This document shows, piece by piece, positions 5,972 through 18,531 of a stretch of 44,948 nucleotides of DNA. Position 1 is the first letter of the stretch. Each line of letters starts with the position of its first letter. Made by a program: the position numbers and the translations under genes. Origin of the DNA: Planctomycetota bacterium (GTDB taxonomy: Bacteria; Planctomycetota; Planctomycetia; Planctomycetales; Planctomycetaceae); contig QWQG01000075.1 of assembly GCA_003670925.1 (NCBI GenBank), positions 1 through 44,948 on the forward strand, read 5' to 3'. A model generated the notes under the pieces. It ran no database searches, was not told where the DNA came from, and worked only from the letters and a program-made list of their open reading frames with translations.

Positions 5972-6210
5972 ACCGCGTCTTTCCTTTGTGACTTGATAAT
6001 CGGACAGAGGAATTTTAGTTGGCACTTAAAAATTAGCGAGCCATTCGATCGCAGGAACGCCGCGCACCACTTCAAATTGGAACGCACTTTTTGATCGCGA
6101 CCGATTAAAAAAAAACTGGGCATATTCAAAAGTTAGGTTTTGGCCGTTATGGATAACGTGAGATTGCGGTTTTGCCGAGTAATTTTCAATTTTTTTTGGA
6201 GGTCAAATTG

Positions 6211-7317
6211 ATGAGCCCAGGAAGAGCGCGACTGCTGACGGGGACTTCCTGCGTGGGAACGCTGGTGATTTTGGCGATTGGCATGCTGTGCTGGGATGTT
6301 TCACGATCTGTCTTTCCCACATCAGCGGCGAGTGCTACCACGGAATACCTTTCTGTTTTGGCTTTTTTCACAGGGGCTGCGGGTGTGCTGCTACCCTTCG
6401 ATCTCATCGGAGGGCTTGCGATTCCGGCTGCCTTCGAATCACGACCGCCACGGTTGAGATTTTGGGTGAGGCAATGGTTTCGATCGGTTGGGATTCAGTC
6501 TCTGTTCTTTTCGTTGACTTTATTTCTTTATTTGCAGATTGGCCGCGCGATTGGGGCACCGTGGCTGGTTGCAATGTTTGCAGTGCTCCAGACGACTCTG
6601 GTCGCCGGGCAGGAACTCCTGTGGCAGGCTCTGACTGCCAATTGGACCGGAGCGGCACACAGAGAGCGGACGCAGGTTGTGCCTCATTCCGATGAACGAT
6701 TTATGGGAGGTATTGCTGGATTACCCGGATTTGAAACGATTCTGGTACCTCGTGCTTGGGGTTTACGGCTGCGGCCGGCTTCTCTGGTCACGATTGTGAA
6801 CAGACGACGAGCGGCGGTGACGTGCGGCGGGAGGTCGCGAGGAATTCTCTGCGCGATGTGTTGGAACATCTCGGGGTTCACGCTGTGCATCATCGCGGCG
6901 GGTACATCCGTTCAATCCGTCGCAGACATTGTCTCCGTCTATCTGTGGTTCCTGCTGTTTTCATTTGCAGGTCTGCTCATCTTGCCTGTGCTGAATCGAC
7001 AGAGTGTGTTCGCTCTCGATCAACATTTCTCAAACGCCCACAGTCATCTGGAGTTACGTGAAGCAATCACTGATGTGGATCGAATCACCGATCAGGATCC
7101 CACGCGCTCTCCCTCGGCTGAATCCGTCTTCCAGCCGATTCCGTGCTCAGAACGACGGTCAAGGTCTCTGGAGACAGCGGGATCCGGCCACGTCATCGCA
7201 TGGAATATCGCCCGGACAGCGTTATTTCTGAGTTGGGCGTATGGAGGGCCTTTAGCCCGTGCCGTTCACTCCAATGTTGGCCGCACGGAACTCTGGGCCA
7301 TGATGCCGACTGATTGA
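6211..7317 (+). CDS. Multi-pass membrane protein of unknown function preceding the carotenoid genes
   Basis: About 368 residues from the ATG at 6211, chosen because of a strong GGAGGT site 7 bases upstream. Hydrophobic segments lie near the N-terminus (TCVGTLVILAIGMLCW-like), at AFFTGAAGVLLPFDLIGGLA, at SLFFSLTLFLYLQIG, and twice in the second half (FTLCIIAAGTSVQSV region, then VYLWFLLFSFAGLLILPVL). A central soluble region, DERFMGGIAGLPGFETILVP, and a tail, LDRITDQDPTRS-like then VFQPIPCSERR, look conserved rather than random. There is no HExxH or other catalytic signature I can see. A 350-base gap separates it from the synthase gene, so it may or may not be in the same operon. Function not assigned. 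Confidence 0.7.
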   Translation: MSPGRARLLTGTSCVGTLVILAIGMLCWDVSRSVFPTSAASATTEYLSVLAFFTGAAGVLLPFDLIGGLAIPAAFESRPPRLRFWVRQWFRSVGIQSLFFSLTLFLYLQIGRAIGAPWLVAMFAVLQTTLVAGQELLWQALTANWTGAAHRERTQVVPHSDERFMGGIAGLPGFETILVPRAWGLRLRPASLVTIVNRRRAAVTCGGRSRGILCAMCWNISGFTLCIIAAGTSVQSVADIVSVYLWFLLFSFAGLLILPVLNRQSVFALDQHFSNAHSHLELREAITDVDRITDQDPTRSPSAESVFQPIPCSERRSRSLETAGSGHVIAWNIARTALFLSWAYGGPLARAVHSNVGRTELWAMMPTD

Positions 7318-7667
7318 TCCGGGCTCGACGACAAGGTGTCCATTGCCCCGCAAAAATCCTTCAGGGGGGCCGCTGGCGACCGCTGTTGCTGCGGTGACAA
7401 AATCCCTGAAACCAACAACCATTCATCGCGGCATTTTTCCCGGGCCACGTTCCTCACCGCACTTGCACTTGTGGATCACCATGCAACGCCTAAAATACAG
7501 GCAGAGTGCTTTCATCTCCGCGCCGTCTCAAGTCAGACAATTCGCGAGTTGCATGCTTCCGCTTGTAGGCAGAAAACGTGATCCTCGACAACTGACGCTG
7601 CTTGGCGGACTCATTTCCGACCGCGTGGATTATCAATCTCGGAGTTCTTCAACGATTGTTGCGGGGT
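7318..7667. other. Gap between the membrane protein and the synthase gene
   Basis: About 350 bases with two overlapping plus-strand frames (from 7336 and 7343) that have no protein-like features. It may carry a promoter or leader for the carotenoid operon. I see no clear hairpin or promoter box. Confidence 0.4.
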
Positions 7668-8627
7668 GTGGACACCGTGGTACAAACATTGACGGCCATC
7701 GATCAGCAGCAGGATGACGACAGGTTTCTAGACGAGTTGCTTCAGGGAACCAGTCGCACGTTCGCATTGGCGATTCCATTACTAACTGCTCAGCGACGCC
7801 GCCAGATCGGTCTTAGCTATCTGCTCTTTCGCGTCGCCGACAGCATTGAGGACGCCCCTAAAGGTGATGCGACGACGAAAATCGCATTACTCACTGAGAT
7901 GAAAACATACCTAAACAGAATCGCTGTCGGCAGTCCTCAGGAGCGGGAATCTTCGAGCAATTCTGCGGTGTGTATACGAGGTTTATGGCCTCCAGAGAGC
8001 CCAACGGAAGGACTTTTGCTGCAGCTTCCGAGGCTAATGGTGCTGTTTGATGAATTGCCACCTTCCGTGGCACACGAGATTCAGAGAGCATTATCTTCGA
8101 CGCTCAGTGGCATGATTCGTGTTATCGATGCCTCGCAGAGTTCTCGTGACCAGATTCAAATTCAGACTGTAGGTGACCTACGTCTTTACTGTTATGCGGT
8201 CGCTGGTGTTGTGGGTGAGTTACTGACGGATATTTTCGTGATGCATCATCCCCTTGGGGTTGCCGTGCACAACGAACTGAGGCAACTTTCCGTCGGCTTT
8301 GGCGAGTTCCTCCAGCTCACCAATATCCTCAAAGATGCCGATCGTGACGCCACGAGTGGCCGCGTCTTTATTCCGTGCGGGACCTCCCGCGAAAGCATTT
8401 TTCAATTAGCACATGCCGCGCAAGAAGACGCTTTGCTGTACATCCGCCTCCTAGAAAAGCACAATTTCCCGATGGACGTCCAGTTCTTCTGTCGCTTTAT
8501 TTGTTTTCTCGCGGATGGTTCACTCAGCAGACTTCGAAGCCACGGGGTTGGTAGCAAACTCACTCGAGACGAGGTCCTGCGAATTCTGGCGGCTGTAAAA
8601 TTGGAATCGGGCGTTCTGCCGGTCTAG
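7668..8627 (+). CDS. Squalene/phytoene synthase-family enzyme (CrtM/SQS-like)
   Basis: Head-to-head prenyl synthase. Both aspartate-rich motifs are present: VADSIED (D58, E61, D62) and LKDADRD (D223, D225, D227), with the family signatures GTSRTFALAIPLL near the N-terminus, YCYAVAGVVGELLTDIF and LTNILKD before the second motif. The family joins two farnesyl (or geranylgeranyl) diphosphates; with the downstream CrtN/AldH/CrtP set a C30 product is likely. The VAGVVGELL and NILKD segments look more like squalene synthase than like HpnC/HpnD. No ATG start exists in frame after the stop at 7593: candidates are TTG 7602, GTG 7668 and GTG 7677. I chose GTG 7668, which leaves about 28 residues before the conserved SRTFALAI. 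Confidence 0.9.
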   Translation: MDTVVQTLTAIDQQQDDDRFLDELLQGTSRTFALAIPLLTAQRRRQIGLSYLLFRVADSIEDAPKGDATTKIALLTEMKTYLNRIAVGSPQERESSSNSAVCIRGLWPPESPTEGLLLQLPRLMVLFDELPPSVAHEIQRALSSTLSGMIRVIDASQSSRDQIQIQTVGDLRLYCYAVAGVVGELLTDIFVMHHPLGVAVHNELRQLSVGFGEFLQLTNILKDADRDATSGRVFIPCGTSRESIFQLAHAAQEDALLYIRLLEKHNFPMDVQFFCRFICFLADGSLSRLRSHGVGSKLTRDEVLRILAAVKLESGVLPV

Positions 8628-8752
8628 TCAGCAGCGGCGAGGCACCGGAGCAGTTTATTTTTTCCACAGCGAGGACTCGCATTGTGTGAGTTTTGGGGAA
8701 TCGGCATAATCTGCCATTCACGATCAATTCCCCGAAGGTAACAGGAAACGCG

Positions 8753-10321
8753 ATGACAAGGATGTCAGCGAACAGGAAAAAAGTTTGTATTGTGGGCGCT
8801 GGTCCAGGTGGATTAGCAAATGCCATGTTGATGGCGCAGGCTGGAGCGGAAGTGACTTTGTTCGAGCGCGCGGAACGCGTGGGCGGACGATGCTCGGCCA
8901 TTGAAGCCAATGGATTCCGTTTTGACACCGGTCCCACTTTTTTTCTGTATCCTCGGGTGCTGGAAGAGATTTTTCGATCTGTCGGGCGTGATCTTTGGCG
9001 GGACGTGCCAATGACGCGTCTGGATCCACAGTACCGTCTCGAATTTGGGGCTGGTGGGCGTATTGATGCCACGCCAGATATTGGGCGGATGCGTTCTGAG
9101 ATCGCGCGGATCTCACCCCACGATGCCGCATCGTTCGAACGCTTCATCATCGAGAACCGGGCAAAGTTAGCGCGGTTTCGTCCGATTCTGGAATCGCCGT
9201 TCAGCAGTGTATTGGATCTGTTGCGCCCCTCGGTGCTCAAAGCAGCGCCGTGGCTTCGTCCGTGGCGGTCCGTGGCCGACGATTTGCAGAAGCACTTCTC
9301 AGATCCGCGGCTGATCACAGCATTCTCCTTCCAGTCGAAGTATCTGGGAATGTCACCGTTTCAGTGTCCCAGTCTGTTCACAATCCTTGCTTTTCTGGAA
9401 TACGAGTACGGGGTCTTTCATCCGACAGGAGGTTGTGCAGCGGTCAGTGAAAAAATGGCGGATGTTGCGCGCGACATGGGAGTTGACATCCGGCTGAGTG
9501 AACCTGTGGAGCAGTTGCATTTTGATGGCAGAAAAGCCGTAGGTCTCCGATCCCACACCGGCAATCATGAGTTTGATGCACTGGTGATTAACGCGGACTT
9601 TGCGAATGCCATGCAGCAGCTAGTTCCGGATCGCCTTCGCCGACGATGGAACAATCGCCGGCTGGAACGCAGTAAGTACTCATGTTCCACGTTCATGATG
9701 TATCTCGGCATCGACGGACGATATGACGATTTGCCGCATCACACGATCTACATTGCCCAAGACTACGAAAAAAATCTGGACGAGATCGATCGCCTCAAGA
9801 TTCTGTCTGAGGACCCATCGTTCTACGTGCAAAATGCCGGTGTCACGGATAACACACTTGCACCGCGCGGCATGAGTACATTGTATGTGCTTGTCCCGGT
9901 CGCACATCAGGCACCGAATATTGACTGGACCAAGCAGAGTCAAGCATTTCGGGCTCAGGTCCTCCGTCAGCTCAAAAAAATTGGCTTGCATGATGTCGAA
10001 GATCGGATTCGCTTCGAGAAAATAGTCACGCCGGACGACTGGCAAAACACGTATCAGATCTTTCGCGGAGCCACGTTCAATTTGGCGCACAATCTTGGGC
10101 AGATGCTCCATTTGCGGCCGCACAACCAGTATGACGATCTGAAGCAAGTGTATCTGGTTGGGGGCGGAACTCACCCGGGAAGCGGTCTGCCCGTGATCTA
10201 TGAATCGGCACGGATTTCCGCGCGGATGATGTGTGATTCTTTGCGACTTCGGTATCCGGAATTTGCAGCAATTCCGGTGAACCAACGCGATAGTGACGGG
10301 CCGTTGCGGAGGGCTGCCTGA
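8753..10321 (+). CDS. crtN: Carotenoid desaturase, CrtI/CrtN family
   Basis: About 522 residues from the ATG at 8753, which has AGGAA just upstream (a longer TTG frame from 8693 is less likely). The N-terminal FAD motif is VCIVGAGPGGLANAM with FERAERVGGRCSAIE. The middle has FRFDTGPTFFLYP, typical of CrtI/CrtN, and the C-terminus has YLVGGGTHPGSGLPVIYESA, the family signature for FAD binding. It should introduce double bonds into squalene or dehydrosqualene. Its stop codon overlaps the ATG of the aldehyde dehydrogenase by one base (TGATG). Whether this or the second paralogue is the CrtN desaturase, rather than the CrtP oxidase, cannot be settled by eye; the symbol is tentative. Confidence 0.87.
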   Translation: MTRMSANRKKVCIVGAGPGGLANAMLMAQAGAEVTLFERAERVGGRCSAIEANGFRFDTGPTFFLYPRVLEEIFRSVGRDLWRDVPMTRLDPQYRLEFGAGGRIDATPDIGRMRSEIARISPHDAASFERFIIENRAKLARFRPILESPFSSVLDLLRPSVLKAAPWLRPWRSVADDLQKHFSDPRLITAFSFQSKYLGMSPFQCPSLFTILAFLEYEYGVFHPTGGCAAVSEKMADVARDMGVDIRLSEPVEQLHFDGRKAVGLRSHTGNHEFDALVINADFANAMQQLVPDRLRRRWNNRRLERSKYSCSTFMMYLGIDGRYDDLPHHTIYIAQDYEKNLDEIDRLKILSEDPSFYVQNAGVTDNTLAPRGMSTLYVLVPVAHQAPNIDWTKQSQAFRAQVLRQLKKIGLHDVEDRIRFEKIVTPDDWQNTYQIFRGATFNLAHNLGQMLHLRPHNQYDDLKQVYLVGGGTHPGSGLPVIYESARISARMMCDSLRLRYPEFAAIPVNQRDSDGPLRRAA

Positions 10322-11982
10322 TGAGATTTTTCGACGGCACGACGGCGTGTGGTGGGTTAGCAAAAACGTCGCCCCCAGCGTCGCAAGCGCCCAAGATTCC
10401 CAGGATATCTGCCCCAACGCCCAGTGGCACAGCAGGGCGTGTTTCGGCAACATTGCGGCTGCATGCTGCTGAGACTGCAAGCACAGAGCACTCTGGAGAC
10501 ACATGTTTTCTGGACGTCGTGGAACGTACGCTGTGTCAGGCACGAGCGGCACAGTCCACCTGGGCCACGCGAACTTTGCTTGACCGACTTAGAATTCTAA
10601 AAACGCTTCGCCAAAAGATTGCCGCGAATCCGCGCAACCTTGCGGCAGATGTTTCGCGTCTCAAGCTGTCCGAAACCCTTGCTGCCGAAGTTTTGCCGCT
10701 CCTTGATGCCTGTCGATTTTTAGAAATCGAAGCCCCGCGTATTCTGAAAGAAAACCAGCTTGGCACCAGAGCACGTCCCATGTGGCTTTGGGGAACTCGT
10801 GTGACTCTGCGGCCAGAACCGCTTGGTGTCGTGCTGATTATTGGTCCAGCAAACTACCCACTAATGTTGCCGGGAATTCAGATTCTGCAAGCGGTGTCGG
10901 CAGGCAATGCGGTTTTAATCAAGCCCGGTACAAATGGAACTGCGGCAATTCAGACGCTCGTAGATCTGGCGGCCGCGAGCGGTCTGCCGGCCGATCTGAT
11001 TCAGATTCTTCCGGAAGATCCCCTTGTCGCAGTGACTGCGATGCGCTGTGGAGTCGATAAAGTGTTTTTAACCGGGGCTGTGACAACGGGACGCGCGGTG
11101 CGTCGCGAGCTAGCCGACGCAGGAACTCCTGCGGTAATGGAACTCTCAGGGTGTGATGCCGTTTTCATTCTAGACGACGCCGATCCTGAATTGGCAAGCG
11201 ATTGCCTCCTGTTTGGATTGACGCTCAATCAGAGTCAGACCTGTATGGCTCCTCGCCGAGTCTTCGCCAGCGATCAGATGGTCGATCGGGTTCTTTTGCT
11301 CGTACAGAAAAAAATCGCAGCTCGGGAGGGGATCGATACTATTGTGCGGGGCGAGGCGGCACGCACGGCGATTGAAAAGATTCAGGATGCCGTCACCGCC
11401 GGAGCGAAACTCCAATCAGGTCAGATCAACTTCAGCAGCGGCTCCCCGGAATTGCGGGGAGTGGTAGTCCTAGATGAAGTGACGATTGAGATGGCCGTCA
11501 CGCGGTCAGATCTCTTTGCACCAGTACTGTCCTTTTTGCGCGTCCGCTCAGAAGAACAAGCGTTGCGGGATCACCTAAAGTGTCCATATGCCTTGAGTGC
11601 GACTGTCTTTGGGTCACAGGCCCGCAGTCTGGTATTTGCGCGAAAAATCCATGCGGGCTGTGTGGTGATCAACGACATGATCGTGCCAACCGCGGACCCA
11701 CGTGTGCCGTTTGGCGGGCGGGGCCAAAGCGGGCATGGAATGACACGCGGTGAGGCGGGTCTGCTTGAGATGACACAACTAAAGACCATCGTATCGACGC
11801 GACGCTGGTTCAAGCCGCATCTTCAAACGCCAACACCGGTGGATGCGGATGTGCTTGAACAATTGATTCGAATCGAGCACGCTGCCGGAGTCTGGCAGAT
11901 GCTCACTGCGGTTCCACAGATGATCAAGACCACGCTTGCTCAGTTAAAATTTCGAAAAACTCTGGGAGAACGAAAACCATGA
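10321..11982 (+). CDS. aldH: Aldehyde dehydrogenase, carotenoid-type (AldH)
   Basis: A 553-residue ALDH. The catalytic pair is present: general base E274 in VMELSGCDA and nucleophile C308 in NQSQTCMAPRR, with the usual 34-residue spacing. The cofactor region includes IIGPANYPLMLPG and NAVLIKPGTNG, and FLTGAVTTGR precedes the Glu. In staphyloxanthin synthesis the matching step oxidises 4,4'-diaponeurosporenal to the acid, and placement between two CrtN-like genes supports that role. The first 60 or so residues (Ala, Pro, Ser, Thr-rich) are an extension not seen in standard ALDHs. The ATG overlaps the previous stop and the 3' end overlaps the next ATG by four bases (ATGA), so it sits in a tight operon. 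Confidence 0.9.
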   Translation: MRFFDGTTACGGLAKTSPPASQAPKIPRISAPTPSGTAGRVSATLRLHAAETASTEHSGDTCFLDVVERTLCQARAAQSTWATRTLLDRLRILKTLRQKIAANPRNLAADVSRLKLSETLAAEVLPLLDACRFLEIEAPRILKENQLGTRARPMWLWGTRVTLRPEPLGVVLIIGPANYPLMLPGIQILQAVSAGNAVLIKPGTNGTAAIQTLVDLAAASGLPADLIQILPEDPLVAVTAMRCGVDKVFLTGAVTTGRAVRRELADAGTPAVMELSGCDAVFILDDADPELASDCLLFGLTLNQSQTCMAPRRVFASDQMVDRVLLLVQKKIAAREGIDTIVRGEAARTAIEKIQDAVTAGAKLQSGQINFSSGSPELRGVVVLDEVTIEMAVTRSDLFAPVLSFLRVRSEEQALRDHLKCPYALSATVFGSQARSLVFARKIHAGCVVINDMIVPTADPRVPFGGRGQSGHGMTRGEAGLLEMTQLKTIVSTRRWFKPHLQTPTPVDADVLEQLIRIEHAAGVWQMLTAVPQMIKTTLAQLKFRKTLGERKP

Positions 11983-13538
11983 AGGCAAAATTAGATATCG
12001 TCGTTGTGGGCAGCGGACTTGGTGGATTGGCAACGGCTTGTACTTTGGCCGGACGCGGTTATGCAGTCACCGTGGTCGAAAAAAATGCATGGCTGGGCGG
12101 CAAAGCCGCGTTACTGGAGGACAGCGGCTATCGCTTCGACATGGGCCCCACGATTCTGACATTGCCATCCGTCCTGCGTCGCGTATTTACGGAGGCCGGA
12201 AAATCTCTGGAAGACTATCTCCAAATGAAACGTTTGGATCCTCAATGGCGATGCTTCTTTGATGATGGCACGCAGTTCGATCTCGTGGAATCGTTGCCAA
12301 AAATGAAAGACAGGCTGCAGGAATTCACAGGCTCTGATCGGACGGGCAACGGATACGAAAAATTCATGGGGATCTCCCGGCAACTGGACGAAGTCTCCAA
12401 TCGCTTTTTTTTCTGGAAAAGCGTCGGCGGGATCGCAGACACGATGGATTTTAAGCGGTCATTTTCTTGGAATGTCCTGCGTGATGTTCTGAGTCTGCGA
12501 TTTGGGAGAACAGTCGCCGGATTGGTGCGTTCGCATATTCCTGATCACCGAATTGCGCAGATGATTGATCATTTTACGCAGTATGTTGGATCATCGCCAG
12601 AAGCCTCGCCAGCCGTCTTGTGCGGCATCGCACACATGCAGACGAACGAAGGGATCTGGTATCCGATGGGCGGCACGCGAGCCGTCCCGGAGGCTCTTGT
12701 GCGCTTAGGGCGGGAACTAGGCGTGCGATACATCACGGGGCAGCAAGTAATGTCGATTGATTCACAATCAGGGCATGTCACGGGCGTTACGTTGCACGAT
12801 GGCACTTCGTTGCAAGCAGCCACTGTTGTCTCCAATTCTGACTGTGTGCGAACTTGCCAAGAACTGCTGCCACCGAAGGTTGCCGCACGATTGATGTCCC
12901 GGCGAAAATTCGAAGCCGCTTGTTCTGGTGTTGTGCTCTACTTAGGGTTGCGGAAAAAGTACGACCACATCCTGCATCACAATTTTGCGTTCAGCAAGGA
13001 TCCACACGTGGAATTTCAGCAGATCTACCAGCAAGGCGAGCCAGCAGCCGATCCGACATGCTATGTCTGCGCACCATCACTTTCGGGAGATCAAGTCGCC
13101 CCGGGTGACGGCGAAGCGTTGTATGTGCTCGTCCATACTCCGTATCTCAGAAAACACCATGACTGGAAACGCATGTTGCCTGCCTATCGGAACGTGATCA
13201 TCAACAAGCTCAAATCCACAGCAGGCATGGAAGACATCGAAGATCGGATCGAAGTGGAACATTCGCTGACGCCCGCTGACATCCATACGCGGTATCACGT
13301 TTTGAACGGAGCCATCTACGGTCTGGCGAGCCATGGACGATTTATGGGTGCATTTAAACCCGCGAATCGAGTCACCGAACTCAAAGGACTGTATCTTGCA
13401 GGCGGATCTGCACATCCCGGTCCTGGCATGCCGATGGTCATGATGTCCGGTTGGATCGCAGCAGACACGGTGGATCAGGATCTCCGCAAGAGTCCGTCCT
13501 TGCAAGACAAGTCCCCGAAAGCAAAGGCCGCAGCCTGA
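11979..13538 (+). CDS. crtP: Second CrtI/CrtN/CrtP-family FAD enzyme (candidate carotenoid oxidase)
   Basis: 519 residues with the FAD motif IVVVGSGLGGLATACTLAG and VVEKNAWLGGKAALLE, the GYRFDMGPTILTLPSVL signature, and the C-terminal GLYLAGGSAHPGPGMPMVMM. It is a paralogue of the gene two upstream, and both flank the aldehyde dehydrogenase. In the staphyloxanthin route one such paralogue desaturates (CrtN) and the other oxidises a terminal methyl group to the aldehyde (CrtP). By context one of the two probably has that oxidase role; which one is uncertain. The start overlaps the AldH stop (ATGA). Confidence 0.87.
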   Translation: MKAKLDIVVVGSGLGGLATACTLAGRGYAVTVVEKNAWLGGKAALLEDSGYRFDMGPTILTLPSVLRRVFTEAGKSLEDYLQMKRLDPQWRCFFDDGTQFDLVESLPKMKDRLQEFTGSDRTGNGYEKFMGISRQLDEVSNRFFFWKSVGGIADTMDFKRSFSWNVLRDVLSLRFGRTVAGLVRSHIPDHRIAQMIDHFTQYVGSSPEASPAVLCGIAHMQTNEGIWYPMGGTRAVPEALVRLGRELGVRYITGQQVMSIDSQSGHVTGVTLHDGTSLQAATVVSNSDCVRTCQELLPPKVAARLMSRRKFEAACSGVVLYLGLRKKYDHILHHNFAFSKDPHVEFQQIYQQGEPAADPTCYVCAPSLSGDQVAPGDGEALYVLVHTPYLRKHHDWKRMLPAYRNVIINKLKSTAGMEDIEDRIEVEHSLTPADIHTRYHVLNGAIYGLASHGRFMGAFKPANRVTELKGLYLAGGSAHPGPGMPMVMMSGWIAADTVDQDLRKSPSLQDKSPKAKAAA

Positions 13539-13565
13539 AGAGACAGATTTGACGAGGAATCGCCC

Positions 13566-14384
13566 ATGATTTCAGCACAGATATCTCTGTTCTCTCGAAT
13601 CCTGAATTGGGGATTTCGACGTTACGTCCGTCGATTCGTCAGACAAAACTTTAACGCGGTGCGCGTTGCCGGACAAAAACATTTGTCGCATTTGCCGCCA
13701 GGCCCTTTCGTGTGCTTTGTCAATCATCCCGGGTGGTGGGATCCAATGACCGTTGTATTGCTGACGGATCAATTGTTTCCGGGCCGCCGCTTCGCCGCAC
13801 CGATGGATGCTGAGGCGCTCAAACGCTATCCAACACTGGGACATCTTGGCTTCTTTCCCATCGCGCGAGACAGCGTCGCAGGAGCAAAGGAGTTTTTGAA
13901 AACCGGTCAGACGCTGTTGAAGTCAGCAGACACGATTATGTGGCTCAGTCCCACCGGAAAATTCAACGATGTGCGAGAGGCAACGCCATTCATGCAAGGT
14001 CTGGGTCATCTAGTGGAGCGGAATTTTGCGGGTTCCTTGTTTCCCATGGCAATTGAATACACGTTTTGGAATGAACGCTCACCCGAACTTTTGGTCCAGT
14101 TTGGGGCTCCGATCGACCGCTCCTCGCTCCCGTTAGAACGCGAACAAAGAACACGCATGCTAGAAGAGAGCCTTGCTCAAACTCAGGCATCTTTAGCGCA
14201 GCTTTCGATTGCGCGAGACCCGTCCGCTTTCACCACCGTGATGATCGGGAAAAGTGGGATCGGTGGCGTTTATGATGCGGGCCGAAGGCTGATGGCGTGG
14301 GTTCAAGGCAAGCGTTTTCAAGGACGGCACAGCGATGAAAAATTACTCCGCGGCACCGTCGCAAATGGAGAAGTCACATGCTAA
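13566..14384 (+). CDS. PlsC-like acyltransferase (CrtO-like role)
   Basis: 272 residues of the lysophospholipid-acyltransferase fold. The HX4D catalytic motif is NHPGWWDP (H54, D59). The usual PEGT block is replaced by SPTGKFNDVR (S128-R137), a variant. The reading frame begins at ATG 13566 with GAGGAATCGCCC upstream. In a staphyloxanthin-type pathway an acyltransferase esterifies the glucosyl carotenoid with a fatty acid. The S. aureus CrtO is a different type of membrane acyltransferase, so this would be a functional analogue. Its end overlaps the glycosyltransferase by seven bases, which supports coupled action. Confidence 0.8.
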   Translation: MISAQISLFSRILNWGFRRYVRRFVRQNFNAVRVAGQKHLSHLPPGPFVCFVNHPGWWDPMTVVLLTDQLFPGRRFAAPMDAEALKRYPTLGHLGFFPIARDSVAGAKEFLKTGQTLLKSADTIMWLSPTGKFNDVREATPFMQGLGHLVERNFAGSLFPMAIEYTFWNERSPELLVQFGAPIDRSSLPLEREQRTRMLEESLAQTQASLAQLSIARDPSAFTTVMIGKSGIGGVYDAGRRLMAWVQGKRFQGRHSDEKLLRGTVANGEVTC

Positions 14385-15583
14385 CGGTTGCGATCACGGG
14401 ACTGGTCTGGGCGACATTGAGTGCGACGATCTGTATGTCTGGCTTGTTTCTTCTCAATCTACTTTTTTTCAGCAAGGCCCCGACTGCCATTGGCCGCCTT
14501 ACGAAAGACCGCGCGACCGGAATCAGGTATCCCGGCGAGGTGCATGGCGACGCAGGCTGGCTGCAAGTTTCCGTCCTGATCCCCGCGCGAAATGAAGCCC
14601 TGCGGATTGGCCCACTGCTCGATTCAGTGTTGAGTAGCGAAGGCGTTCGCTGTGAAATCTGGGTCCTTGATGACGAAAGCCAAGACGGAACAGAGGGGAT
14701 TGTCCTGAACTATTCCTCCGCTCATGCCCATGTGCGCCTCATCCGAGGCAAGCCAGTTCCCGCAGGCTGGAGCGGCAAACAGTTTGCATGTTGGCAATTG
14801 GCTCAGCACGCCTCATTTCCAGAACTTGTTTTTCTGGATGCTGACGTGGCACTCGCGCCGGATGCACTGCGTCGAGCAGTTCTGTTGAGACAACAGACCG
14901 GGGCAGACTTATTAAGCGGATTTCCTCATCAGCGAGTTGGCACGCTGGGCGAACAATTACTCATTCCTTTAATCCATGTGGTTCTATTGTGCTTTCTGCC
15001 GTTTGGTTTAATGCGATGGAGTCGTCTGACAGGGGCCGCAGCGGGATGCGGCCAGTTCTTCATCACCACCAAGCAAGCGTATGAAATCAGCGGTGGTCAC
15101 AGTGCAATTCGTCAGTCGTTGCATGATGGCATTCTGCTGCCGCGTGCATATCGACGCGCGGGCCTGATCACAGATTTGTTCGATGCTTCGGATCTAGCAA
15201 GTTGTCGCATGTACACTTCGTTCGCTGAAACATGGTCCGGTTTGCTCAAGAACGCAGGAGAAGGATTTGCGAAGATGCCCCTGCTCCCGTTCATGACAAC
15301 CCTGATGCTCCTCGCATTTGTCTCGCCAGTCCTGTGTCTCATAGCAGCCGCAGGCGGGTGGATTAACAGTGACCTTCAGCTTCCGATCGTAACCGCCGGG
15401 GTGTTGAGTTATCTACCTCGAATCGTCTGCTGCTGGCGGTTTGATCGAGCGTGGCTAGCCTGTCTACTGAATCCGACCGCGATCATGCTGTTTCTCATGA
15501 TTCAGTGGACGGCGCTGTTGCGAAAACAACTCGGCAAAAGTATTCAATGGCGGCAGCGCAGTTATGAAATCGCCACCTCATGA
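14378..15583 (+). CDS. crtQ: Family 2 glycosyltransferase (CrtQ-like)
   Basis: 401 residues. An N-terminal hydrophobic helix is followed by a GT2 domain: SVLIPARNEALRI, VLDDESQDGTE (D98, D99), a DxD metal motif FLDADVAL (D154, D156), GCGQFFI and a catalytic-region LHDGILLPRAY. Three or more C-terminal hydrophobic segments (about residues 305-385) make it a membrane-bound processive-type fold. The CrtQ glycosyltransferase of staphyloxanthin synthesis glucosylates the terminal carboxyl. It starts inside the end of the acyltransferase gene and its stop overlaps the ABC ATPase start. Confidence 0.83.
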   Translation: MLTVAITGLVWATLSATICMSGLFLLNLLFFSKAPTAIGRLTKDRATGIRYPGEVHGDAGWLQVSVLIPARNEALRIGPLLDSVLSSEGVRCEIWVLDDESQDGTEGIVLNYSSAHAHVRLIRGKPVPAGWSGKQFACWQLAQHASFPELVFLDADVALAPDALRRAVLLRQQTGADLLSGFPHQRVGTLGEQLLIPLIHVVLLCFLPFGLMRWSRLTGAAAGCGQFFITTKQAYEISGGHSAIRQSLHDGILLPRAYRRAGLITDLFDASDLASCRMYTSFAETWSGLLKNAGEGFAKMPLLPFMTTLMLLAFVSPVLCLIAAAGGWINSDLQLPIVTAGVLSYLPRIVCCWRFDRAWLACLLNPTAIMLFLMIQWTALLRKQLGKSIQWRQRSYEIATS

Positions 15584-16503
15584 CAGAGCCACCATCACCC
15601 ATTCTGACATTGAACAACGTGCGGAAAAAGTATCGAGGCTGCGAAGCGCTCAAGGGCATTTCACTTCAGTTATTTCCGGGAGAGTTGTTAGGATTCTTTG
15701 GCCCGAATGGTGCCGGAAAAACGACCATGATTCGTTGCATTAGCGGCTTATTGAAGCCGGATTCCGGACAGATCCGGATGCAGGTCTCCGCAAACTCAGA
15801 TGCCACCAAAACAGCCCGCCTCGGATTGGTTCCTCAGAATCTAGCCGTGTATCACGATTTGACAGTGCAGCAAAACTTGGAAGTTTTCGGTCGCTTGGAA
15901 GGTGTCACGGGGCGACCGCTCCAGACGCGAATTGCGGAAGTTTTGGACTGGGCTGCGTTGAAAGACCGGACTCGATCACTGGTCAAAACGTTGTCCGGCG
16001 GAATGCAGCGAAGATTGAACATCGCCTGTAGCGTGCTGCATCGACCATCCGTCCTCCTGCTGGATGAACCCACTGTCGGCGTCGATCCGCAGAGTCGGGA
16101 ACGCATCTATACCATGCTGGATGATCTCACAGCGCAGGGAGCTGCAGTGCTGCTGACGACGCATCAACTAGACGAAGTCGAAACACGATGCCATCGAATT
16201 ATGGTGATCGATCATGGCACGATCGTAGCAGACGGAAAACTTCCCGATCTGGTCCGCCAGACGATCGGCAGACCGCATCGGGTCTTTGTGCGCTTTGACC
16301 AGCCGTATCATCAGGAACTGGCGGCGTTTTCATTCGACGAACACCGCACAAGTGCGATGTGTCCAATTGATTCAATGCAGGAACTGCCTCAGGTTCTGGC
16401 CGTGCTAAAGCAACTCGATCGCGAGCCGAGCCAGATTGATGTTCGTAGTTTTGGTCTACAGGATGTCTTTCTGGCATTGACCGGAAGGAGTCTTCGGGAA
16501 TGA
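15580..16503 (+). CDS. ABC transporter ATP-binding protein
   Basis: 307 residues. Walker A is GPNGAGKTT (residues 41-49), the signature is LSGGMQRR and Walker B is VLLLDEPTVGVD. The family pattern is that of DrrA/CcmA-type exporters, with a C-terminal extension of about 80 residues containing VFLALTGRSLRE, the typical end of this group. It overlaps the glycosyltransferase stop (ATGA) and the permease start (four bases). By context it drives an exporter for a carotenoid product or related lipid; that is inference. Confidence 0.9.
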   Translation: MTEPPSPILTLNNVRKKYRGCEALKGISLQLFPGELLGFFGPNGAGKTTMIRCISGLLKPDSGQIRMQVSANSDATKTARLGLVPQNLAVYHDLTVQQNLEVFGRLEGVTGRPLQTRIAEVLDWAALKDRTRSLVKTLSGGMQRRLNIACSVLHRPSVLLLDEPTVGVDPQSRERIYTMLDDLTAQGAAVLLTTHQLDEVETRCHRIMVIDHGTIVADGKLPDLVRQTIGRPHRVFVRFDQPYHQELAAFSFDEHRTSAMCPIDSMQELPQVLAVLKQLDREPSQIDVRSFGLQDVFLALTGRSLRE

Positions 16504-17957
16504 TCCTGACGATCCTACGTATCATGTACCTTCGCCTCCGCAACAATCCCTTGGAGTTGCTGCTGGTATTCGTCATGCCTGTCATCTTTTTCAGCATCTT
16601 CGCCGCGATCTTTAGTAACGGGATCGCCACTGGCAGTGACAAGCAACTGCGAATGGCTGTGGTGTGCGCTGAGCAAACGCCAGTGGGAACGGAATTGCGG
16701 GAATTTCTCGAAGCAAATTCGTCACTGCAATGCACTTCATTAAACGACAACTTAAGCACACAGCGTCTGAATGACGTGACTGTCTCGTCGCTCATTCGCG
16801 ACGCGCAAAACTCGGGTCGCTACGACCTCGTCATCAAGTTGCCGTGCGACATCCCGAGTGACACAACACACGCTCCGGTGCAAGTGACTTTAGTGACCGA
16901 CGGACACAACTCAATGGCAGTCGCGATGGTCTCTTCGATTGTGAAAGCCTTTTTCTCGCAAAAGCAGGCGCGGGCCTTCGCCGCGAAACTCTTGAGACCG
17001 CAGACGAATGAGAATGGCACCGTCGAAGTTGCGGCCGAAACGTCGTCACCGGGCACGCTCGCTGGCCTTGAGATGCAGAAATCTAACGATAGTTCGTTCT
17101 TTCATGCAGCCAAGACTCCCTCCGATTTTTTTTCTGAATCACAGATTCAGCAACTGATGACGACTGACGAATACGGCGTGATTCGAGTTGGAGAGATGGC
17201 TGCCGTTGTTCCTAGCCGTTGGGCTCTGCAAAAATCGGTGGATCTCACTCAACCTCAATCATTGAACGCAGTGCATCAGAAGGTGCCTGCACCCTTTGAG
17301 ATAGATGACGACGTAAGCCTTGTTGTCGAGAACCCACAGGCCATGAGTCAGGAGAACCCCCGCATCGCCATGTATGCGGCGGGCATTGCCGTGCTGTTTC
17401 TGTTGTTCTCGGCGACCGGGAATGCCGCTGCTTTACTTGAAGAGGAGGAATCTGGAACGCTGGATCGAATCCTCGTCAGTAAAGCCGGATTGTTCCACAT
17501 CATTAGTGGCAAGTGGCTCGGAATTCTCCTCCTGGGCTGTGTCCAGATCAGCGTCATGTTTCTGTGGGCAGAAGTGATCTTTCGGATTCAGTTATGGCAG
17601 CATCTCGATGGATTTGCCGTCATGACAATCTGCACGGCTGCTGCAACGTCGAGCTTTGCCATGCTGCTGGCAACCGTGTGCAAGTCACGAGCTCAATTGA
17701 ATGCCGCATCTGTGGTCATCATCCTCAGTATGTCGGCCGTTGGGGGGAGTATGATCCCTCGATTTGTCATGAGCGACCAAATGCAGGAGATTGGCAAATG
17801 GACCTTCAACGCTTGGGCCTTGGACGGTTATCAAAAAGTCTTTTGGTACCAGTCACCCGTGTCCAGCCTTCAGACGGAAGTCATGGTGCTCCTCGGAAGC
17901 GCCGTCGTACTTGGGATGTTGACATTGATATTTTCCCAACGCTGGAAGCATGGATAA
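16500..17957 (+). CDS. ABC-2 type permease with large extracytoplasmic domain
   Basis: 485 residues. One helix near the N-terminus (LLLVFVMPVIFFSIFAAIFS, about 16-40) is followed by roughly 240 residues of soluble, Ser/Thr-rich sequence. After this come at least five more helices, starting at MYAAGIAVLFLLFSATGNAA, with the ABC-2 pattern EEEESGTLDRILVSKAG between them and ending near ALDGYQKVFWYQSP. The large loop after helix 1 is typical of the YhhJ/DrrB-like group. It forms the transporter with the ATPase gene just upstream. Substrate not shown by sequence. Confidence 0.87.
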   Translation: MILTILRIMYLRLRNNPLELLLVFVMPVIFFSIFAAIFSNGIATGSDKQLRMAVVCAEQTPVGTELREFLEANSSLQCTSLNDNLSTQRLNDVTVSSLIRDAQNSGRYDLVIKLPCDIPSDTTHAPVQVTLVTDGHNSMAVAMVSSIVKAFFSQKQARAFAAKLLRPQTNENGTVEVAAETSSPGTLAGLEMQKSNDSSFFHAAKTPSDFFSESQIQQLMTTDEYGVIRVGEMAAVVPSRWALQKSVDLTQPQSLNAVHQKVPAPFEIDDDVSLVVENPQAMSQENPRIAMYAAGIAVLFLLFSATGNAAALLEEEESGTLDRILVSKAGLFHIISGKWLGILLLGCVQISVMFLWAEVIFRIQLWQHLDGFAVMTICTAAATSSFAMLLATVCKSRAQLNAASVVIILSMSAVGGSMIPRFVMSDQMQEIGKWTFNAWALDGYQKVFWYQSPVSSLQTEVMVLLGSAVVLGMLTLIFSQRWKHG

Positions 17958-17973
17958 CCCAGAGGGTATCTGT

Positions 17974-18531
17974 ATGAAAAGAATGAATCCCGTCGTGGCG
18001 TTACTCATCATCACCGCCCTCGCCAGCGGATTTCTGCTGCTCCAAGATTCAATGCTCCTCCAGCCTCCCGAATCAGGCCCGATGTGGCAGCAACCCCTGA
18101 CCTTACTGCCAAAGACTTTGCCGCCGACCGTCGACTCTGTGGCATCAGCGATTCCTGTCGCACAAGAAGTAGCCTTCAGCGTCAAGGGGCTAAATCCGAG
18201 AGCATCGAGCGTTTATGTCGCGGTCTTTGAAGCTGAGGCAGGCTTTCCATACCCAGAACTCTCCAGCCAGACGACGGTCGTTTCGGCAACGGAAGAGCAG
18301 GTCCGATTCTGGCTCACACTTCCCCAAAATCAGCCAGTCGCGATCGCCATTTTTCAGGACATTGATGGAAACGGCAAGCTGTCAAAAAATGCGATCGGTA
18401 TTCCAGCCGAGCCTTACGGTTTCTCGAACAACGCCCGAGGACTTCTAGGACCACCCGCATTTAGTCAGGCAGTTTTAATCATCAGGGCAGATCGTGATCT
18501 GGTTAAACCCATCGAGATTAAAGTTCGATAA
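17974..18531 (+). CDS. DUF2141 exported protein
   Basis: About 185 residues. Two in-frame ATGs exist: 17950, overlapping the permease stop by eight bases, and 17974, preceded by AGAGGG about eight bases away; I favour 17974. The N-terminus (MKRMNPVVALLIITALASGF) is a signal peptide or anchor. The rest fits DUF2141: VYVAVFEAEAGFPYP, then VAIAIFQDIDGNGKLSKN, IGIPAEPYGFSNNARGLLGP and PAFSQAVLII. The Asp-Gly-Asn repeats resemble a calcium-binding loop. The family's function is unknown, but I recall such genes often sitting beside carotenoid genes. Here it closes the operon after the exporter, suggesting a periplasmic partner of product export. Confidence 0.85.
   Translation: MKRMNPVVALLIITALASGFLLLQDSMLLQPPESGPMWQQPLTLLPKTLPPTVDSVASAIPVAQEVAFSVKGLNPRASSVYVAVFEAEAGFPYPELSSQTTVVSATEEQVRFWLTLPQNQPVAIAIFQDIDGNGKLSKNAIGIPAEPYGFSNNARGLLGPPAFSQAVLIIRADRDLVKPIEIKVR

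Follow-up and report, generated by a model that had tools for sequence, protein, structure and literature searches.

A planctomycete carotenoid gene cluster continuing into an ABC-2 exporter and a DUF2141 protein: a candidate pigment-trafficking module

We describe a carotenoid gene cluster that continues into an ATP-binding cassette (ABC) exporter and a DUF2141 protein, found in a stretch of 44,948 nucleotides (the whole stretch analysed, hereafter the window; contig QWQG01000075.1 of assembly GCA_003670925.1, positions 1 to 44,948) from a planctomycete genome of 5.78 Mb, the kinship of which was taken from the named relatives in one scan. Nine genes, for a squalene/phytoene synthase-family protein (SQS), a first desaturase (CrtN), an aldehyde dehydrogenase (AldH), a second desaturase/oxidase (CrtP), an acyltransferase, a glycosyltransferase, an ABC ATPase, an ABC-2 permease and a DUF2141 protein, probably form one unit (we put the probability at roughly 0.55) that produces a C30 carotenoid acid with a sugar and a fatty acyl group and transfers this pigment across the inner membrane. 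That the exporter and the DUF2141 protein belong to the pigment programme was the core of the preliminary description of this locus, and it is strengthened by the analysis given here; we infer the export, its substrate and the outer-membrane destination.

The eight genes from CrtN to DUF2141 lie on the forward strand at 8753-18531, all intact, and the place and tight spacing attributed to them in the preliminary description were borne out, with junctions ranging from a 7-base overlap to a 27-base gap. All eight products were over the curated Pfam cut-offs (Amino_oxidase of the CrtI type twice, Aldedh, Acyltransferase, Glycos_transf_2, ABC_tran, ABC2_membrane_3 and DUF2141). The CrtN-type desaturase (8753-10321; TIGR02734, 529.7 bits against a cut-off of 238.1) overlaps AldH (10321-11982; PF00171, 248 bits) by 1 base, and AldH overlaps the CrtP-type desaturase/oxidase (11979-13538; TIGR02734, 394.9 bits) by 4 bases; both desaturases are over the cut-off of this NCBIfam phytoene desaturase family. 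After a 27-base gap follows an acyltransferase of the lysophospholipid-acyltransferase type (13566-14384; PF01553, 35.6 bits, cut-off 23), which overlaps by 7 bases a membrane glycosyltransferase of family 2, HpnB/CruG-like (14378-15583; PF00535, 60.3 bits; HpnB 125 and CruG 89 bits, both below cut-off). Overlaps of 4 bases join the glycosyltransferase to the ABC ATPase (15580-16503; PF00005, 112.8 bits) and the ATPase to the ABC-2 permease (16500-17957; PF12698, 97.5 bits). The DUF2141 gene (17974-18531; PF09912, 81.2 bits, cut-off 24.4) is separated from the permease by 16 bases when read from the ATG at 17974, or overlaps it by 8 bases when read from a second in-frame ATG upstream at 17950. 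That these last three genes continue the synthesis unit, as had been proposed, was confirmed by Pfam, by the junctions and by the conserved order (see below). Outside the span first described, the SQS gene (7602-8627, start codon uncertain; PF00494, 104 bits; best NCBIfam model squal_synth, 76.9 bits, below its cut-off), the putative C30 backbone enzyme, lies on the same strand 125 bases 5' of CrtN.

The cluster was classed as a C30 operon, as it encodes two distinct proteins of the CrtI family, CrtN and CrtP, and contains the AldH, glycosyltransferase and acyltransferase genes. The staphyloxanthin crt operon of Staphylococcus aureus has the same enzyme classes as the window and, to our knowledge, no transporter. 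Of the staphyloxanthin-type route proposed at first, the enzyme classes are indeed present; the Methylobacterium pathway to a glycosylated and acylated C30 di-acid fits the enzyme set at least as well (PMC10448405; citations here and below refer to excerpts of the papers). Deletions of the glycosyltransferase and the acyltransferase alter the last steps toward the acyl-glucosyl di-acid in M. extorquens (PMC10448405), and deletion of crtNPOQ in Azospirillum brasilense led to loss of the pigment and accumulation of squalene (PMC13274349). The window CrtN is 70-93% identical to CrtN within the genus and 55-65% to that of other planctomycete loci, and the window CrtP shares 61.6% identity with its counterpart in the plasmid operon of A. 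brasilense, the second desaturase there. The product would be a glycosylated and acylated carotenoid, for which C30 is inferred from the enzyme relatives. Squalene is derived from HpnCDE in Planctopirus limnophila and Methylobacterium (PMC10448405) and in A. brasilense (PMC13274349); hpnD deletions have been made in tractable planctomycetes such as Stieleria maiorica or P. limnophila (PMC11958385). In the genome of the window, no HpnD was found over the cut-off, the sole match being the SQS gene itself (57.3 against 278.6 bits); this search, which was limited to HpnD, was without positive control, as none of 14 control genomes was over the cut-off (seven matched below it). As the HpnCDE route was, judged from HpnD only, not seen here, the SQS-type gene is presumably the backbone enzyme, and the squalene source is probably this one gene.

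The order of the genes was compared among relatives (genomes, loci, families and genera are given below by our own G, L, f and g handles). CrtP was found in 9 of 17 relatives from the same genus, and the permease (E < 1e-90) and DUF2141 were found in those same nine; the remaining eight have neither CrtP nor this exporter nor DUF2141, and only more distant permease relatives, the closest of which (G006, E 4.7e-46) falls in a separate clade of the permease tree. The whole nine-gene order from SQS to DUF2141 lies on a single contig in six of the nine CrtP-bearing relatives, the SQS gene being upstream of CrtN in all six, and in the other three contig ends interrupt it, the pieces still following the expected sequence. 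Three genomes from three other genera, G173, G191 and G229, likewise have an unbroken run from CrtN to DUF2141, and G235 has CrtP, the permease and DUF2141 on one contig at coordinates that fit the operon order. Linkage of the crt, ABC and DUF2141 genes across planctomycete genomes, which the preliminary description had named as a test of its proposal, thus holds in the genus and in three other genera, and it recurs in other phyla. Chance adjacency was considered and rejected in view of the conservation in genus and family together with the co-occurrence described next.

In a class sample of 297 planctomycete genomes (completeness at least 85; E cut-offs of 1e-120 for CrtP, 1e-40 for the permease and 1e-3 for DUF2141), CrtP was found in 123 genomes, the permease subfamily in 28 and DUF2141 in 28; among the 14 control genomes of the DUF2141 search, only Caulobacter vibrioides was positive. 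CrtP was present in 25 of the 28 permease genomes against 98 of the 269 without the permease (Fisher p 5e-8) and in 22 of the 28 DUF2141 genomes (p 3e-5), and permease and DUF2141 occurred together in 22 genomes (p 1e-22); note that these tests treat related genomes as independent, which weakens the case, and that the counts by genus are the more cautious figures (permease with CrtP, 14 of 16; DUF2141 with CrtP, 12 of 14; permease and DUF2141 both, 12). In family f5, the permease lies on a different contig from CrtP, or at least 80 kb away, in all 14 permease genomes (DUF2141 is near the permease in G066, G185 and G217), and CrtP is present in 14 of these 14 genomes and in 13 of 13 DUF2141 genomes of the family. 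This co-occurrence without proximity makes the tie to CrtP independent of shared position; contig ends may hide some linkage. As a separate observation, just two CrtP matches of the class sample (124 match rows in 123 genomes) contain an in-frame stop, those of the f5 genomes G264 and G321; these are the only 2 of the 16 f5 CrtP genomes without the permease, DUF2141 is absent from them too, and both belong to one genus, so that perhaps a single event of pathway decay is seen.

The ABC pair was also found with carotenoid genes in other lineages. In two strains of Botrimarina (L136, L152), a genus in which B. hoheduenensis and B. colliarenosi have the pair next to crt genes, the pair is oriented toward the crt cluster, and in a Planctomycetota metagenome-assembled genome (MAG; L127) CrtN, ATPase and permease stand in a row. 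Stieleria sedimenti, a relative of S. maiorica, has the ABC pair as well. Among 297 Acidobacteriota genomes, 17 have the permease. G385 contains CrtN, AldH, CrtP, acyltransferase, glycosyltransferase, ATPase and permease in the order of the window, and in G539 the permease is divergent from CrtB-CrtI-CrtY. In the MAG G322 (L120), lycopene cyclase, CrtI and phytoene synthase are part of a single run with ATPase, permease, DUF2141 and an HpnE-like oxidase (cyclase and CrtI over the cut-offs, synthase and HpnE-like oxidase below those of the named models), which is a C40 context, with no glycosyltransferase or acyltransferase match within the stretch. Since the ABC pair thus also accompanies a C40 cyclase cluster without such a match, we argue that the carotenoid, not the glycolipid, is the common denominator. 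In G323 (L124) the ATPase, permease and DUF2141 genes are encoded on the strand opposite to that of the cyclase, desaturase and synthase genes. Among plasmids the permease matched in four records, of which those of Microvirga ossetica and Neorhizobium were inspected; in M. ossetica, permease, ATPase and DUF2141 adjoin two desaturases, an acyltransferase, a glycosyltransferase and a synthase gene. The C30 locus of Limimaricola has neither the ABC pair nor DUF2141 in the stretch. In several Acidobacteriota, ATPase and permease appear as one long frame (733-804 residues), namely in G557, G604, G519 and at L124 8297-10618. The permease tree (111 rows) was built from a selection of 125 stretches, of which 14 were dropped (13 duplicates; L129 was too short), with frames of more than 560 residues trimmed to the last 430. 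On this tree no fewer than 7 changes are required to explain the crt-linked label (24 rows), as counted by a quick method with long-branch warnings; the label means crt genes within the sampled stretch only, and rows from short contigs count as unlinked. The longest-frame caller of open reading frames mis-called genes in GC-rich loci, and those tables served only for coordinates.

DUF2141 is found with carotenoid genes in further arrangements. It occurs in 21 of the 297 Acidobacteriota genomes (in 19 over the cut-off), and in three C30-type clusters of this phylum (G456, G543, G559) AldH, one hydrophobic segment and DUF2141 are read in one frame of 626-636 codons (L248 6746-8632, reverse strand; L250 6984-8864, reverse strand; L253 4592-6502, forward strand). 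A DUF2141-CrtP fusion had been suspected from open-frame lengths and was rejected, as the frames read show AldH, not CrtP. On plasmids DUF2141 was found in 37 records, of which 12, one from each of 12 genera, were inspected. Four of these contexts are C30-type operons (A. brasilense, Microvirga, Palleronia, Gluconobacter); on the Sphingomonas plasmid DUF2141 lies beside a sterol-desaturase-family gene, with phytoene synthase about 7 kb off, and on that of Alisedimentitalea beside a carotenoid oxygenase. In the A. brasilense records the DUF2141 gene comes after the glycosyltransferase gene. The Roseomonas context, one of six without a crt gene in the stretch, includes LptF/LptG-type permeases and a sterol-desaturase-family gene at most 4 kb away. 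The C30 operons of A. brasilense, Gluconobacter and Palleronia have no visible ABC pair; together with the frames shared with AldH, this indicates that DUF2141 serves the pigment and not this exporter alone. Other surroundings were seen in planctomycetes: in two f5 genomes (L189 6228-6809, reverse strand; L192 5824-6513, forward strand) a lone DUF2141 lies between a dCTP-deaminase-like gene and a protein of 539-576 residues without a Pfam match, followed by DUF1570. At L201 7045-7554 (G079, genus g54) it adjoins an HlyD-type adaptor gene and at L200 7648-8118 (G308) an FtsX-type ABC permease, contexts that we read as other exporters with the same helper.

From these contexts we propose tentatively, at somewhat short of even odds, that the ABC pair and DUF2141 are a dedicated carotenoid-trafficking module that C30 and C40 pathways have recruited on several occasions across at least three phyla, and that brings the pigment to the outer side of the inner membrane or to the outer membrane; DUF2141 would be a periplasmic carotenoid-handling domain tethered at the site of synthesis, sometimes in one polypeptide with AldH. 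We know of no earlier dedicated carotenoid-trafficking module.

The proteins themselves were compared by sequence and by predicted fold. The ATPase contains motifs that we take to be Walker A, signature, Walker B and H-loop, and its best solved relatives by sequence are human ABCA7, ABCA4, ABCA1 and ABCA3. The permease consists of one membrane helix, a large variable stretch (about 41-285), taken as periplasmic, and a conserved transmembrane core; the mean predicted local distance difference test (pLDDT) of its model is 67. Its profile matched only an insect ABC protein at E < 0.001 among solved sequences, and by fold it matched a ceramide-bound ABCH exporter, NosDFY, ABCG and ABCA chains (ABCH-9C: Z 22.8, 337 aligned, root-mean-square deviation (rmsd) 13.2; ABCA4: Z 21.9, 241 aligned, rmsd 3.5; NosDFY chain E: Z 21.5, 220 aligned, rmsd 3.0). 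With ABC_tran and ABC2_membrane_3 over the cut-offs in adjacent genes and a permease core of fitting fold, the pair was classed as an ABC-2/type V exporter. The fold relatives are mostly exporters of lipophiles; a shared fold shows no substrate. The pair was below the cut-offs of the models for the daunorubicin exporter DrrAB (TIGR01188, 235.2 of 312.45 bits; TIGR01247, 30.2 of 223.05 bits) and for NodIJ (TIGR01288, 178.6 of 424 bits; TIGR01291, 19.1 of 206.65 bits). Of the export first suggested, the exporter architecture was therefore upheld by Pfam and fold, and the pigment as substrate, its exit from the inner membrane and its arrival at the outer membrane stay at the level of proposals. 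The model of the DUF2141 protein (mean pLDDT 87, the domain blocks mostly 93-98) has a helix at 6-27, a low-confidence linker and a separate beta sandwich at about 61-185; the predicted protein is read as membrane-anchored and periplasmic, in agreement with the periplasmic place suggested for it before. The N-terminus of DUF2141 in L120 and L124 resembles, by eye, a lipoprotein signal. No specific fold relative was found: Foldseek gave no match at E < 0.001, the VIA rows were common beta sandwiches, and a profile search of solved sequences gave no match; the first row, the secretin pilotin 2yjl (Z 8.3, 90 residues, rmsd 2.8), was followed by rows of at most 7.3, mostly other beta-sandwich proteins.

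According to the proposed scheme, SQS would form the C30 backbone, CrtN would desaturate it, CrtP and AldH would oxidise its ends to carboxyl groups, and the glycosyltransferase and acyltransferase would attach a sugar and a fatty acid, respectively. The sugar-acid head of the finished pigment would be too polar for unaided crossing, and the pigment would stay on the cytoplasmic side until the ATPase and permease, as a type V exporter akin to lipid floppases, turn the head over to the periplasmic leaflet. With its N-terminal helix as an anchor in the inner membrane and its beta sandwich in the periplasm, DUF2141 may then stabilise, receive or pass on the flipped pigment. Onward movement to the outer membrane is possible and is the least certain step.

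Several findings weigh against the scheme and against the wider proposal. Such a permease is missing from 98 of the 123 CrtP genomes in the class sample, by which the module was rejected as a general feature of all planctomycete C30 clusters; pigment synthesis thus does not need the exporter, which is optional. The first inspection outside the genus covered 18 CrtP clusters from a set of 79 genomes, some with stretches that stop at contig ends; 17 of these clusters are without this module's ABC pair alongside. The remaining one, in G054 from a different genus of this family, speaks for the scheme: its CrtP is directly followed by an ABC-2 pair of more distant kinship (L067 5126-7358; ATPase 36% and permease 28% identical), possibly a second recruitment. 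No sign of a stand-in transporter was found beside 8 of the 18 clusters, a thin test with one flanking gene scanned each (ferritin, short-chain dehydrogenase twice, RNA cyclase, protein kinase, metallo-beta-lactamase, PhoD phosphatase and one unmatched). Two of the eight CrtP-less genomes of the genus are only 79% and 61% complete. The permease occurs without CrtP in G059 (a C-terminal fragment only), G269 and G311 (separate clade), and without DUF2141 in G122, G157, G222, G269, G311 and G320; DUF2141 occurs without CrtP in six genomes (G059 and five of genus g54), and without the permease in the five g54 genomes and G308. In G059 the permease is reduced to its last 138 residues, adjoining DUF2141, as if an operon had been lost there and left a scar. 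Neither the Botrimarina genomes nor the G385 operon contain DUF2141. In Acidobacteriota, crt genes lie beside the permease in only 3 of the 17 genomes (G322, G385, G539; some stretches are short), and only 4 of 20 inspected DUF2141 stretches (from 16 genomes) lie within a C30-type crt cluster, besides G322. Half of the inspected plasmid contexts of DUF2141 (6 of 12) have no crt gene in the stretch, and on the Neorhizobium plasmid no crt genes accompany the ABC pair within the stretch inspected. The frames shared by AldH and DUF2141 could hide an internal start, and the periplasmic stretch of the permease is poorly modelled (pLDDT below 50 over 166-270).

Such findings bear on three other readings. 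That the ABC pair is a pigment floppase and DUF2141 not a carrier but a periplasmic scaffold, sensor or end-group enzyme, with or without an exporter, is quite possible, if improbable on balance: it would account for DUF2141 in the C30 operons without a visible ABC pair, for the frames with AldH in three genomes, and for the neighbouring sterol-desaturase-family gene and carotenoid oxygenase on plasmids, as well as crtG in Sphingomonadales (PMC5989583, PMC9241875), and it is opposed by the tight co-occurrence of DUF2141 with the permease in planctomycetes (22 of 28 for each) and by the gene order, DUF2141 being the next gene after the permease in the window and in L120 and close to the permease at other loci. 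Rather unlikely is an exporter that serves the carotenoid programme with another cargo, such as an isoprenoid intermediate that is damaged or in surplus, an apocarotenoid or a further lipid usefully exported during pigment synthesis. Deletion of crt loci failed in a high-flux A. brasilense strain, where the authors suspected toxic intermediates (PMC13274349), one ABC module serves both C30 glyco-acyl and C40 lycopene-cyclase clusters, so that the substrate range may be loose, and the closest solved relatives carry many lipophilic compounds; however, the 4-base overlaps of glycosyltransferase, ATPase and permease, and the position of the ABC genes after the glycosyltransferase in the genus and in G385, fit the finished glycosylated product better. 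A general envelope-housekeeping function, with exporter and DUF2141 merely downstream of the crt genes, is disfavoured and very improbable. In Pirellulaceae, and in 14 of the 17 Acidobacteriota genomes, permease relatives do stand apart from crt genes, and DUF2141 contexts without crt genes were seen in Ruegeria, Comamonas, Hymenobacter, Azotobacter, Roseomonas and Pseudoalteromonas, but the co-occurrence statistics, the linkage across three phyla, the joint absence in the genus and the AldH-DUF2141 frames speak against it. We prefer the reading of one unit for synthesis of the pigment and its transfer across the inner membrane.

Around the cluster, a sigma-70 promoter scan gave 2 sites against 6.9 in shuffled sequences and was not informative. 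An open frame of 381 residues 5' of the operon (6172-7317, forward strand) is possibly not a gene; neither Pfam nor NCBIfam models matched it, nor did tblastn find it in the CrtP loci of the relatives inspected.

We know of no account of how bacterial carotenoids reach their position in the envelope. Within the papers that we searched, our search found no link of DUF2141 or an ABC pair to C30 operons, and on carotenoid export it found transporter genes beside carotenoid genes and no tested bacterial carotenoid exporter. The carotenoid-gene linkage in other phyla suggests transfer of the pigment over the inner membrane in some bacteria. With an exporter and a periplasmic partner conserved next to carotenoid genes in several phyla, pigment placement would become testable by deletion in tractable strains, and DUF2141, whose association with crtG was reported without an explanation (PMC5989583), would gain a lead to its function.

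Among known systems, the squalene-route C30 clusters of M. extorquens, A. brasilense and P. limnophila share CrtN, CrtP, AldH, acyltransferase and glycosyltransferase with the window; they differ by HpnCDE in place of the probable single SQS-type gene (PMC13274349, PMC10448405), and no ABC pair was seen in the stretches of A. brasilense and Limimaricola. In Sphingomonadales, DUF2141 lies beside crtG with a role reported as unexplained (PMC5989583, PMC9241875); the carotenoid link is shared, whereas the context is that of a C40 hydroxylase and the excerpts mention no ABC pair. Transporter genes also stand in clusters of other pathways, namely an ABC gene, its kind not stated in the excerpt, beside crtZ and crtY of Fulvimarina pelagi and a putative carotenoid transporter gene of Sphingomonas astaxanthinifaciens (PMC4962014). 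The crt operon of Corynebacterium glutamicum resembles the window in its arrangement, with the resistance-nodulation-division (RND) gene cg0722 inside and the co-regulated secreted lipoprotein cg0726, and differs in the transporter family, in the C50 pigment and in that the role of cg0722 is given as unknown (PMC5401885). The aryl polyene/xanthomonadin clusters are likewise pigment clusters with an inner-membrane exporter and periplasmic helpers, and their product is in the outer membrane; they use an RND exporter and Lol-like proteins for a polyketide (PMC8253772), and the window has an ABC-2 pair and DUF2141 beside genes for a putative isoprenoid pigment. By the Pfam scan, no RND exporter or Lol-like gene is among the genes of 7602-18531. 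The type V ABC lipid exporters (ABCA1/3/4/7, ABCH-9C, ABCG), which are mostly eukaryotic, and NosFY, a bacterial system tied to copper, have low identity to the window pair (7-17% among the rows listed) and are alike to it in ATPase sequence and permease fold.

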